Assembly: GCA_963930775.1 (NCBI GenBank)
Contig: OZ005697.1
Location: forward strand, 2,046,001-2,110,000
Direction of reading: 5' to 3'
DNA: 64,000 nucleotides
Source: Cliona cf. orientalis
Taxonomy: Eukaryota; Porifera; Demospongiae; Clionaida; Clionaidae
The translations under genes and the position numbers were made by a program. Within the stretch, counting starts at the first letter, position 1; every line of letters starts with the position of its first letter. Below the pieces are notes generated by a model that was given only the letters and a program-made list of their open reading frames with translations, was not told where the DNA came from and did not search any database. Positions 1-64,000 of the stretch are shown piece by piece.

Positions 1-2021
1 CTCTTGTCATTAATGGAACTGATCGTTCCAATAATCTGACTGTCATATGTTGGAATGAAGATGTAGTTACAGGCAAATTTCAGATTCTTTTTACATTGAT
101 ACTGGAGTTTGTTGGTAAGTTCATCAATCAAACTTGACCATTCGTTATTCCATGGCCTCAATTATTTTAGGCATATTACCGGCTCCAAATAATACTCAAT
201 ACAGTGAAGATCCCACTGGGTACCTACAAATATTCTGGGAGCCACCAACTTTAGCTTATGACAAACTTGGCTCTCAGAATGTTAGAATTGATTCCAAGAT
301 ATCACACTTTGAAATTTACATCACCAATGAAGAGTCAACGATAGTACAAGTCTACAATGTTTCAGAGACATCTTTTTCTATTGGAATTGACAATATTTCT
401 TGCAGCTTCTGGTTTCAGGTGGCAGCAGTGAACCCAGCTGGAGTGGGAGAACGCAGTCCCCCTCAAAATTTAAACTTTGACGGTGAGCTTGCATGTTCAT
501 TATAATAATGATGATAATGATGGATTTTCTGCTTATTAGGGAGATAATAATATTATTATTCTCCACTGTCTATAATAGCATATACAGGATGTATAGGTTC
601 CACAAATCCAACTACAGACATGATCATGGAGCCTATTCCAGCACCCAGTGAAATACCAGGTGAACTGAGTTGTCAATTGTCGATACTAATAGTGATGAGA
701 TTTTGTTTTGTATACAGTTGGTGGAGTCATAGCGATAGTAGTTGGTGTAGTTTTAATAATCGTGGGATTGTCGGTCATATTAGCTATTGTTTTTACACTG
801 AAGCTCAAGAATGATAGGCACCAACAAGTCAAACAGAGTTTGAAATCACAGATAAGGTGAGGAATGCAACAATTACAATAATTATAATAATCCTGAAATA
901 AGGGCTTATCCTTTGAATTATGTTAAAAGTTAAAAGCTCATGATTACATAGCAATATTACAACTCATAGAAGTGATCAGCTATCTGACACTAAGGACTCA
1001 GTTGCTGAGATTGAGAAATGTGTGGAATCAGATCACTGTGGCAGTGGAAATGATCATGACAATGTGGATGATAATAACCAACCGTCAGATTCTACGCCAA
1101 CTAGGGTATGTTGATAAACGTAACTATGTGTTGGCCATTAAATTGCAGTGTTATAATATTATTATTACAGAAATAACAATTCATGACCATGCCATGATGA
1201 CTATAGCTGCTTGCATGTGTCTAGCATTGTCAGTACCATGTAGGCATTGCAGCTGTAGTTGCATGTGTGTGCACACATGTTTGTGATGCGTAGGTGCGTG
1301 TGTAAGTGTTAAGATAAGAGAGAGCATAGTGTTTGGGAGCAACTTGTTTGCCATGTTTGCTCTTGAGAACCAGGATATGGATTATAATTATTTTTATATG
1401 TCACCACACCCTAAAGCTGACTTGCATTGCTCCTCCTAAGACTCCATTTTTAACTCTTTCAGATATGTAGCTAAGTTGTATGTATGCACCCATATGTGCC
1501 TGTGTGCTTTGTACGATACCGTTTCGCATTCTGACAGTGTACAACAGTTTCAGTGACTAACTCATCCTATTCCTATTATGGTCATAATAATATTATGATA
1601 TTATTATTCCTTTGACGATAAATGCTATAATATTATTTACTGATTAGTTCCACATTCACAAAGCTTATAAACACTAGAGCCTGACAAACCCATCCTGATA
1701 CTCTTATGGTGAATTTATGTTTGGGAGGCTTTTCCTTTCATGATGCCATTACATTATGCATAGACCTACTCTCATGATGGTCCACCAGTATGCTCATATT
1801 TATATGCTGAAATTGATGTTGTTGCTAAGAGGAAAAACAAAGTTCCAGAGCCTAGTTCCAACGAAGATATTAGCTGCCACGTATATGCTGTACTGGAACA
1901 GCCATCGAATCAGGTTAACATATGCACTGGCTTAATTAAAATAAAAGCAACAATATCAATATTGTATCCATTGTAGGTAACTGACCCTGATCAAAACGAT
2001 CATCCCGATTCACAAAATTAA
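1..2021 (+). CDS. G1: Ig-FN3 transmembrane receptor, 5' end outside window
   Basis: Partial gene. Exons: 1-114 (end of the Ig-like exon), 171-482 (FN3), 579-659 (stalk), 718-856 (membrane helix), 970-1105, 1764-1913 and 1977-2021 (stop TAA). All junctions are GT-AG and the frame is kept throughout. The Ig exon ends with the second Cys and a loop unlike most members (CWNEDVVTGKFQ). The FN3 exon begins GILPAPNNTQYSED and resembles G5, not the other neighbours. The tail carries YAEI and YAVL. The tail exon ends at PSNQ, without the extra Ile-Gln of G3-G7, and the last exon reads VTDPDQNDHPDSQN. Complete from the FN3 exon on; the signal peptide and the first half of the Ig domain lie before the window. 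Confidence 0.85.
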
Positions 2022-2918
2022 TCTCCCCAAACAATGTCAGGTACACCATAAATATGTTTGTATAGGTTAGCCTACTAATTTTTATGACACTTTACTTACG
2101 CTTTTGGGTATCAGTGTGATTGAGTGATAGCAGGCCAACTTCGATTTCATTGATTATCATGATAGAGGTAATAATAATAATAATAATAATTGGCTGAGTG
2201 GGACACTATTTAACTAGTAAGGTGCAGTTGGGTGGGTGTTCTAAAACATTCGCCACAGAGGGTGCAGTAGAATGGTTAATGTGCACATACTTTGATTTTC
2301 GTCAACAAGAATATATAGAGTGTGATTGAATTGTCTTGTAAGGCAGAGGTGAATGATCGTGAGAAGAGAAGGCTACTGAATGGCCATATGAAGTTTACGA
2401 TAGAGGGTTAAGGTCATCATGGACAACACCACTAACTGTCTGGAGGGGCACAAATTAAGTCAATTACAGGTGGCTGACACAATCTTAAGTCTGAGGATAG
2501 TAAAGATGCTATGTCAGCATCTCCATTACTGTTACCATTGCTGGACTGGGGACTGTGGATTTTGGTATGGGAATTGAATGGTGGGAATGAAGAATACAGT
2601 TGTTCCAGCTTGCCCTCACCTATGATGAGAAAAGGAGGAAGGGGAGAGCAGTAAAATTAGTGTGAGCTATGAAAATCTGGTTGATATTTTATCTTCTTAG
2701 AGAGAAAGTAAACAGTTATGGTCTGAAATCAGTGAGCCATTTGAGGCCATTGTGTCAGCAGTGAAGACCAGCATAATATAGGGAGACGTATAGACCACGT
2801 TGTTGGGCTTAGCATTCCACACTAGTACTGTGCATGCCGTATATATACCATCATGGAGGGAGACCAACTTGTGCATGTGTGTTCTTGAATCATTCTTCAG
2901 GAGGGGAGATATGTAGAT

Positions 2919-3264
2919 TTGGATAGCAAACTTATAACTGAATGGACTGTACAAGTTCAAGCTTGTCTTGCAATTCAAATCTTAGCATTAATGTCATCCC
3001 TCAAGCATAATGGAACCTCCAATAAGGGAGAGAACGATACAATTCAATACAAGTGGTTATGGATACAAGAGTTCTACATGCCACATGCAAGGGTTCCACG
3101 TGTCAAGTACATGCCAATCTCAAGTTAAGTGTACTTCAATGTTGTGTGTATTAGCTGCTCAATCATAATTATTATAGTCACTTTACTTCCTTTCCTCTAT
3201 CCTTGCTGCAGGGAAAATAACCACATTCTCTGGTGTACATGTGACACTGCATGAAAATGGATGA
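2919..3264 (+). other. Possible two-exon reading frame in spacer, unknown
   Basis: An open frame from the ATG at 2919 runs to a potential donor (GTTAAG) at 3124. After a pyrimidine-rich tract, an acceptor ends at 3211, and a second exon continues in the same phase to a TGA at 3262-3264, ending in GVHVTLHENG. The same structure, with one in-frame codon indel, occurs at 33093-33435. The copy at 7498-7620 is frameshifted. It is not similar to anything I recognise. It may be a small gene, a pseudogene or an untranslated exon pair. Confidence 0.25.
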
Positions 3265-3320
3265 AATGAACTACGCATAGTCATTGGATATCCGCGATGC
3301 AACTGTGAGTTGTCTTCCAG

Positions 3321-3464
3321 CAGTGGCGTAGCCAGGGTATGGCAGAGTGTGGCTCTCGCCACACCAAGCTTGCTAAGTCTTGGCTGTATACAAAGTTAAG
3401 TATCTTCTCAATTATGCCTATGCATTTCAGCCATATCAATGTTCATGTGCTGGCTGCGCCCCTG
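3321..3464. mobile_element. 144-bp inverted-repeat transposon (MITE), hAT-like ends
   Basis: Starts CAGTGGCGTAGCCA and ends TGGCTGCGCCCCTG, which are imperfect inverted repeats, flanked by a direct repeat CTTCCAG (3314-3320 and 3465-3471). The paralogous site near 33472-33486 has one uninterrupted CTTCCAGTTTGTG, an empty site that confirms the insertion. It inserted after the spacer duplicated. The CAGTGGCG-type end is typical of hAT elements, although I count 7 matching bases of target duplication, not 8. Confidence 0.8.
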
Positions 3465-62286: not shown

Positions 62287-62343
62287 TCTCTCTCTCTCTC
62301 TCTCTCTCTCTCTCTCTCTCTCTCTCTCTCTCTCTCTCTCTCT
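62287..62343. repeat. (TC)n microsatellite
   Basis: About 28 TC units, within a pyrimidine-rich tract (62262-62375). Confidence 0.95.
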
Positions 62344-62544
62344 CCTTTCCCTTCATCTTCTTTCTCTCTTTCCTTTTGGGGGGAAGCTGGGTGTTTTAAA
62401 GGGGAAGCTTCCCCCCCCCACCCCTCCCCCACTTGATGAAACCCTGCCCTTTATATATGACTATTTCCACTTAGTAAAAATTATAGTCGCTAGTATACGG
62501 ATGCTAGCTAATAGAGGATATGGACTATTATGTATACAGCTATC

Positions 62545-62556
62545 TATAAATTAAGA
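62545..62556 (+). promoter_or_regulatory. TATA-type core promoter of G14
   Basis: TATAAATTAAGA, 46 bp before the ATG at 62603. Confidence 0.6.
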
Positions 62557-62602
62557 TTCTAGCTGACACTCAGCTACAACTTTTCAAGTTCCCCTTTTCA
62601 GT

Positions 62603-64000
62603 ATGAGGTTCCATCCACTGAACACTGTCATCATCATTTGTGGTTTATGTGATTTTGCAAGTGAGAGTTATGTACTACTAGTTACTAGCCATCTATTGAG
62701 TTTGAGTGCACTGAATGATATTAACCTATTAGCTATAGAAATAAAAGACGATCATTGTACATTGTACAGGAACACTACAAATATTCAATGGCACATTAAT
62801 AGAGATTACCTGTACAAGTTCAGCTGCTGTGCCAATTTATCGTCTGGTGGAACAAGGAATAGTGTATGATTTATATGACCAGCTGCCAGACTTATTTGAT
62901 ATTGAGGCAAGACCCTCTCCGATTGGAGACAATGTCACTCTCTACATCAATGGAACCAACCGCTCCAATAATGTGACTGTTAAGTGCGGAACTGTTACAG
63001 TAGATGTATCTTCAGGAATTTCATTTGATGTTCATTTTACATTGATCCTTGAGTTTGTTGGTAAGTTCATCAGTCTAACTATTTTGTTACTCGATAATAA
63101 TTATTAGCTATGTAGGCATTCTTCCAGCTCCAAATGATGTGCACTATACTGAAGATCCTCCTGGATACCTACAAATACTTTGGAAACCACCAACATTAGA
63201 TTCTGAAGAGCTTGATTCACAAAATATTAGTATTAAAAAAGATGCCAGGATAATTTATTACACAATTTACATCAGCACTGAAGAGTCAACAATAGTACAA
63301 GTCTACAATGCTTCAGGGCCATCTTTTGCACTTGGAATTGACAAGATTCCTTGCAGTTTCTGGCTTCAGGTGGCAGCAGTGAACCCAGCTGGGGTGGGAG
63401 AACGCAGTCCCCCAAAAACTTTTGACTGTGAGTTTGCATGATCAATACACAATGACAATGAAGAATTTTCTGCATGTTAGGGAGATAATAGTAGTATAGT
63501 GATTACAGTCACAATATTACATTACTCCCATAGGCAAGAGTATGGATTACAGCTGTAATTGTACTCTCACTCTGTAATTAGTACTCCTAGAATTAGCCTA
63601 ATTTTTATCAATTAATCACGTACTTTTAATCCTCGGACATGCAATTAGGGCAGCAACAGTGCTCTTACGAGTACTCCTATGGCCAAATAGCATTCACTAT
63701 ATCACTCATACTATTACTGACCATATTCGTACTGATTACTTCCCTAATTATGCTCTGAAGTGTAAGATTAATATAATTATTATGCTAATAATATTCTCCA
63801 CTGTCTATAATAGCACATACAGGATGTATAGGTTCCACAAGTTCGACCACAATCATGATCATCGAGTCTATTCCAGCATCCAGTGCATTATTAGGTGAAC
63901 ATAGTAGTGAATATTACTACAATCACCATGCAGCATAGCTGCTAATAGTGATGAGATTGTATTAAGATTTTTATATACAGTTGGTGAAGTCACAGGAATA
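62603..64000 (+). CDS. G14: Ig-FN3 transmembrane receptor, 3' end outside window
   Basis: Exons 62603-62660, 62770-63060, 63116-63427, 63814-63894 and 63981 to the window end, where the helix exon begins VGEVTGI. Exon 1 uses a GTGAGA donor. The Ig domain has two extra residues after the first Cys (CTSSAAVPIYRLVEQG) and the longest loop after the second (GTVTVDVSSGISF). FN3 has KDARIIYYTIYIST and ends at PPKTFD, two codons shorter than usual. Intron 3 is long (386 bp). The stalk exon uses TTAG before its GTGAAC donor (ASSALLG). Everything seen is open; the tail exons lie beyond the window. Confidence 0.85.

Follow-up and report, generated by a model that had tools for sequence, protein, structure and literature searches.

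A tandem array of receptor genes occupies the 64,000 nucleotides described here, from Cliona cf. orientalis, a demosponge in the family Clionaidae (the window; C9:2046001-2110000 of a 216.8 Mb genome). The genes encode single-pass membrane proteins with an Ig-like exon, a fibronectin type III (FN3) exon, and a cytoplasmic tail with two widely spaced tyrosine motifs. The array is real and extends beyond the window, and it is best explained as a tandem expansion of recognition receptors that would work like the vertebrate paired or inhibitory receptor clusters (KIR, LILR, CHIR, and SIRP), a reading to which we give a probability of about 0.5. This reading draws on the architecture of the genes, the constraint on their tails, and the tail-less and mosaic copies, all of which are found in the sequence itself.

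Extent of the array and gene models

A genome search with the FN3 and Ig-like exon peptides placed the array on one strand of C9 at ~1.892-2.148 Mb, about four times the size of the window. It also found two inverted outlier copies on C9, at 2.552 Mb and at 2.571 Mb, and, at C1:7.90 Mb, two distant relatives with 39-44% identity. Within the window, tblastn with the same peptides recovered 14 FN3-exon copies, all on the + strand and one of them frameshifted. The first-pass annotation, made from the window, had reported 14 gene copies on one strand as an array placed there; the number and the strand stand, but only seven copies are intact and the array is much longer. The present analysis covers the loci of C9:1880001-2150000 in one haplotype, where one FN3 exon gave 54 blastn matches (one of just 73 bases) and 55 gene models were built, one a relic. 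The median copy-to-copy spacing is 4.1 kb. The Ensembl annotation of the assembly comprises 25,502 genes according to the available portion of its description (PMC12639293), so single array genes may already have predicted records. Literature searches returned no such sponge array in titles or abstract openings, most subscription papers being outside reach.

The typical gene has eight exons, encoding a leader, the Ig-like exon, the FN3 exon, a stalk, a membrane helix, and three tail exons, as modelled by hand for copy #36. Synonymous differences between copies reach 56% of sites in the Ig-like exon, and because AG/GT splice sites and phase are common to eight-exon copies that differ to this degree, the conservation of the reading frame is far beyond chance. 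The 55 models include 31 with eight exons, of which 23 were scored by script as intact (ATG to stop, all exons in phase) and eight are broken, and 13 of a five-exon type, seven of them open. The figure of 23 is a lower bound because the script filed copy #14 as tail-less, its chain jumping to an exon 6 further downstream; the copy's own exons 6-8 are visible by eye, and it is apparently one further intact gene. In a Kyte-Doolittle window, the N-terminus is hydrophobic and the membrane helix strong in 23 of 23 script-intact copies, the leader being called from hydrophobicity and not by a signal-peptide program. The earlier statements that frame and phase hold exon by exon in the intact copies and that these carry a leader and a membrane helix are thus borne out, and the description of a clustered tyrosine-motif receptor family with many pseudogenes is well supported by the array copies and models. 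An exon-4 acceptor nine bases further downstream was rejected; in several copies it gave false stops at the FN3/stalk junction, and the conserved upstream acceptor was used.

The 14 copies in the window comprise seven intact genes, three long-tailed but broken ones, two pseudogenes, and two without a tail (window coordinates):

1..2021, + strand: copy #33, exons 2-8, intact, long tail; exon 1 outside the window, to its left (C9:2045665)
4155..6539, + strand: copy #34, eight exons, intact, long tail
8551..10761, + strand: copy #35, eight exons, premature stop in exon 6
12897..15263, + strand: copy #36, intact, the reference model
Head exons of copy #36, + strand: signal peptide 12897-12951, Ig-like 13074-13355, FN3 13418-13735, stalk 13801-13887
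Membrane and tail exons of copy #36, + strand: membrane helix 13982-14099; tail 14181-14322, 14966-15121, and 15210-15263
16964..19247, + strand: copy #37, intact, long tail
20558..23019, + strand: copy #38, intact, long tail
25007..27372, + strand: copy #39, intact, long tail; ATG one codon upstream of the aligned start; mosaic relative to #50
28662..32131, + strand: copy #40, eight exons, frame change in exon 6
34237..35752, + strand: copy #41, exons 6-7 not found; the open frame stops soon past the membrane helix
36743..38026, + strand: copy #42, pseudogene with frameshifts; tail exons not found
39553..41637, + strand: copy #43, tail-less class, terminal exon 5 ending ..LFTLLKMYHNRMNRHGK stop; exon 1 assignment uncertain
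49179..51274, + strand: copy #44, pseudogene, exons 2-7
56022..59735, + strand: copy #45, intact, long tail
62603..64000, + strand: copy #46, with exons 1-4 and the first part of exon 5 inside the window and the remainder past its right edge; exon 6 and exon 7 both broken

The array also holds a tail-less receptor class, which is new here. Its alternative terminal exon 5 stops shortly past the helix (..LFTLLKMYHNGMNRHSSK) and was found at 12 places at E<=1e-3, ten of them beside the FN3 exon of a copy and two on their own. These places are mostly in the left part of the array; the exon is also present in the inverted outlier at 2.57 Mb. Copies #23 and #41 have no tail, exons 6-7 being missing from their models. 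Long-tailed and short-tailed members are thus found in one cluster, as is characteristic of paired receptors.

Several other features were observed along the locus. An (AG)n microsatellite of 110 units lies at 58936-59155 of the window, inside the long intron of copy #45 before tail exon 7. Downstream of copy #14, at C9:1946306 and 1947101, a stray tail exon 6 and tail exon 7 occur with no FN3 exon. Long retroelement-like open frames break up the array at C9:1971719-1977215 and C9:1898818-1901970, and the interval from copy #20 to #21 contains frames of this kind together with repeats; these elements were recognised by eye.

Head domains, tyrosine tail, and relatives

A profile of 32 FN3 exons matches titin chains (E 1e-9), and Pfam fn3 was found in 25 of the 32 members at E<=1 with a best E of 2.9e-5, one displayed member scoring 16.4 bits against a Pfam cut-off of 25. 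At the level of profile matches, the identity of this domain is confirmed. A phage search with the FN3 exon gave no match. For the Ig-like exon, Pfam Ig families were found in none of 40 members at E<=1, and a sequence search of PDB returned no credible match. Compared by hhalign with 13 I-set domains of the same genome (13 of 14 passed a two-cysteine filter), its profile scored 11.8, within the range of 60 column-shuffled controls (median 10.7 and maximum 19.1) and lower than an FN3 control (13.0), which leaves the test little power. A structure model of the exon suggests a two-cysteine beta-sandwich at a mean predicted local distance difference test (pLDDT) score of 69, and Foldseek with this model found nothing at E<=0.001. 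A joint Ig-FN3 model had a mean pLDDT of 50 with the FN3 part unfolded and was not used. The label 'Ig' for the head, which is based on the predicted fold, is therefore used tentatively.

Ten of the 14 window copies have tail exon 7 inside the window; its motifs are YAEI and YAVL (YAIL in #44), and an 11th such exon lies just past the right edge. Exon 7 has 37 matches in the genome, all inside the array, 36 at 65-100% identity and one marginal (42%, E 0.79). With broken copies included, YAE[I/V] occurs in 33 of 34 exon-7 copies and YAVL or YAIL in 33 of 34, the two tyrosines being 27 residues apart in 28 of 32 measurable copies (overall range 24-28). The immunoreceptor tyrosine-based activation motif (ITAM), YxxL/I x6-8 YxxL/I, has its tyrosines 10-12 residues apart. 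Those of the array, at 24-28 in the 32 measurable copies, are too far apart for an ITAM, and this reading of the tail was ruled out. The pair may be compared with PD-1, which has an inhibitory motif (ITIM) at Y223 and a switch motif (ITSM) at Y248, 25 residues apart, according to the accessible text of PMC7078208. Alanine follows the tyrosine directly in both array motifs, and an alanine in this position is conserved in many ITIMs, as stated with the ITIM and ITSM consensus in the part of PMC8631942 available. Taking [SIVL]xYxx[IVL] as the ITIM criterion, the first motif has the strict form in the intact copies #11, #29, and #45. One chromosome-1 relative combines a strict ITIM (LIYADL) with a strict ITSM (TAYAVI), 22 residues apart; near the other is a different tail-like frame with YEVT and YEQV. 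Judged by its sequence, the tail is closer in geometry to an inhibitory, ITIM/ITSM-like pair of tyrosines than to an ITAM.

In the first-pass annotation, the protein had an Ig-like domain, an FN3 domain, and ITAM/ITIM-like tails with two YxxI/L motifs. FN3 was called correctly, and the Ig-like domain stands tentatively, as a predicted fold, with no Ig family in Pfam, no credible match in PDB, and no I-set score above the shuffled controls. The two motifs recur as YAEI and YAVL, but exon 7 lies inside the window in 10 of the 14 copies, and of the two tail types the inhibitory one is retained, its common form missing the strict -2 residue.

A candidate partner for such a tail is encoded at C8:9.936-9.938 Mb, where an SH2-SH2-phosphatase gene with HCSAGIGRTG was found; on C4, SH2 and phosphatase matches adjoin at two places.

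A profile search found 319 related proteins with uninformative names, of which 120 were listed. Of these, 26 evidently come from the same assembly (99-100% identity). The best identities of the other 94, which may be from the other haplotype, other individuals, or other sponges, are 70-80% (39), 80-90% (42), 90-95% (5), 60-70% (4), and <60% (4), so that none of the listed outside relatives reaches 95% identity to any array copy. An FN3 tree, which carries no support values, places seven of them (78-86% identical to their nearest copy) close to different subfamilies. Since outside relatives interleave with the subfamilies, the latter seem to be older than the split between the sources.

Selection, mosaic genes, and duplication

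In a codon model of the 23 intact genes, the ratio of nonsynonymous to synonymous rates (omega) is lowest in tail exons 6 and 7 (0.35 and 0.44), intermediate in the Ig-like exon (0.65), in FN3 (0.72), and in the membrane exon and tail exon 8 (both 0.73), and highest in the stalk (1.03). Tail exons 6 and 7 are significantly constrained (twice the log-likelihood difference, 2dlnL, 33.5 and 14.8), and the tails are more constrained than the heads. Nei-Gojobori ratios are lower than the codon-model values, as expected at a transition bias of ~4.

Mean synonymous divergence (dS) is 0.46 in the Ig-like exon, 0.25 in FN3, and 0.18 in tail exon 7. The Ig-like exon is more diverged at synonymous sites than the FN3-to-tail part in 14 of 253 gene pairs (Bonferroni-significant) and the reverse holds in none of 253, although the pairs share genes and are not independent. 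In the clearest case, copies #39 and #50 are 92-95% identical in the leader and most of the Ig-like exon, fall to 69-72% at the Ig/FN3 boundary (windows of 100 columns), and are 97-100% identical from inside FN3 through introns and tail into exon 7, then 93-98% beyond. Such a pattern is consistent with a conversion or unequal exchange of recent date; much the same would be seen if the end of the Ig-like exon had been replaced locally. In the pair #38/#51, a window of 100 columns in tail exon 7 is 99% identical, and the alignable windows of the preceding intron show 44-83%. Because of mosaic pairs such as #39/#50, the FN3-to-tail part is taken to be homogenised while the heads are kept apart. 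Mosaic genes with separate heads on a homogenised FN3-to-tail part are new here.

Longer stretches of the array also resemble each other. Copies #14 and #35 are 98% identical from Ig-like to FN3, and #15 and #37 are mostly 98-100% identical in the 5' part and 83-97% at the 3' end. As judged from these identities, the #14-#15 and #35-#37 stretches (C9:1941.6-1951 kb and 2054.5-2065 kb) are a recent block duplication within the array.

Comparison with known systems and alternative readings

KIR, LILR, SIRP, and CD300 show the same features of clustered, long- and short-tailed paired receptors. CHIR/TILR share with the array clustered single-pass receptors with an Ig-type head, long two-tyrosine tails, and short-tailed relatives, as described in the available portion of PMC3601082. 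Unlike these vertebrate receptors, the array has an FN3 domain next to one Ig-like exon that goes unrecognised by profiles, a common motif without the strict ITIM -2 residue, and a short-tailed class without a charged membrane residue. Hydractinia Alr resembles the array in having tens of linked invertebrate receptor genes and pseudogenes, according to the accessible part of PMC11876637. The array differs from Alr, against which it was set by description only, in its Ig-like plus FN3 exon build. The domain types of the array recur in FN3/Ig receptors and in receptor phosphatases encoded by the same genome, but its tail exon was found nowhere else there. Elsewhere in the genome, many I-set Ig domains are interspersed with tyrosine-phosphatase domains at C15:7.88-8.06 Mb, likely a tandem receptor-phosphatase array and itself a possible recognition family; dense clusters of other FN3 domains, unmatched by the Ig-like/FN3 exons of the array, lie at C13:8.10-8.24 Mb and C1:14.39-14.40 Mb. 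Sponge aggregation factors are, like the array, proposed sponge recognition molecules; they are secreted proteoglycan cores, not membrane receptors with signalling tails.

For ligand binding, phosphorylation, and docking, we infer a course of the paired-receptor kind. The variable head would recognise a ligand carried by another cell, whether self or microbe, both tail tyrosines would be phosphorylated by a kinase of the Src family, and an SHP-type SH2-SH2-phosphatase would dock on the tyrosine pair and dampen the response of the cell, while tail-less members may act as non-signalling competitors. Several results weigh against this reading. Positive selection on the heads was not clearly found in the 23 genes, head omega being <1 in the codon model, and the nonsynonymous rate nominally exceeds the synonymous one (beta > alpha) at seven of 92 Ig-like and five of 106 FN3 codons, which is about chance. 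The Ig assignment depends on a model of mean pLDDT 69, and the common motif forms, YLYAEI and HVYAVL, have Y or H at -2 and so depart from both the strict ITIM and the strict ITSM consensus. Most of the tail-less copies are broken; the one that is clearly open is #2. Inspected by eye, the membrane helix of the tail-less class has no charged residue, so that nothing points to pairing with an ITAM adaptor; in the portion of PMC3601082 available, such a residue in short-tailed members is a criterion of paired receptors, and the tail-less class departs from it.

A rather unlikely alternative, though the best placed of those considered, is microbe or symbiont recognition, in which surface molecules of microbes or symbionts would be the ligands of the heads, and the tails would tune uptake or response. 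Germline expansion, pseudogenes, and tail-less variants are generally known as typical of innate receptors, but no sequence feature favours microbes over cells. Symbiodiniaceae sequence is reported from the sequenced sponge sample in the accessible text of PMC12639293.

It is unlikely that the array is an allorecognition locus, in which homophilic head-to-head binding between individuals would decide fusion or rejection, as proposed for Hydractinia Alr1/Alr2. One linked cluster of ~54 copies with pseudogenes would suit such a role and can be compared with the 40 Alr/Alr-like genes on one Hydractinia chromosome (PMC11876637, available portion), and self/non-self discrimination is described in sponges (PMC5450542, likewise in part). 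Among the 94 listed outside relatives, none at >=95% and 81 at 70-90% identity, the few placed in the tree interleave with the subfamilies, which also speaks for it. It is opposed by the codon model, in which the heads showed no positive selection. The words immunoglobulin, fibronectin, and receptor are all absent from the main text of the Amphimedon graft paper, which therefore lends no support; the paper cites earlier reports involving aggregation factors.

An ordinary adhesion family for cell-type sorting or reaggregation, with no immune role, is to be doubted to the same degree. Ig-like plus FN3 is generally known as a common adhesion build, and the head exons are under mild purifying selection; structural adhesion molecules, however, do not usually have a single short Ig-like/FN3 pair, a tail with two tyrosines, tail-less forms, or strong turnover of copies. 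Largely neutral duplication and decay with few working genes, which the many relics, the broken eight-exon models (8 of 31), the seven of 13 five-exon models that are open, and a stalk omega of ~1 might suggest, is very improbable in view of at least 23 intact long-tailed genes, the constraint on tail exons 6 and 7 (2dlnL 33.5 and 14.8), and the 99% identity of #38/#51 in the tail exon 7 window against 44-83% in the preceding intron.

As one bounded locus that is defined by sequence and comprises mosaics, two classes of tail, and both intact and broken copies, the array is a directly testable candidate for sponge self/non-self recognition. A further, distinctly improbable proposal is that the array forms a sponge histocompatibility-type complex of linked paired, phosphatase-recruiting receptors, with varied Ig-like heads on one homogenised FN3-membrane-tail chassis; if true, it would put ITIM/SHP-type paired-receptor logic at the base of animals. 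The locus would also bear on the question of a single early origin of paired inhibitory-receptor logic in animals as against several origins.

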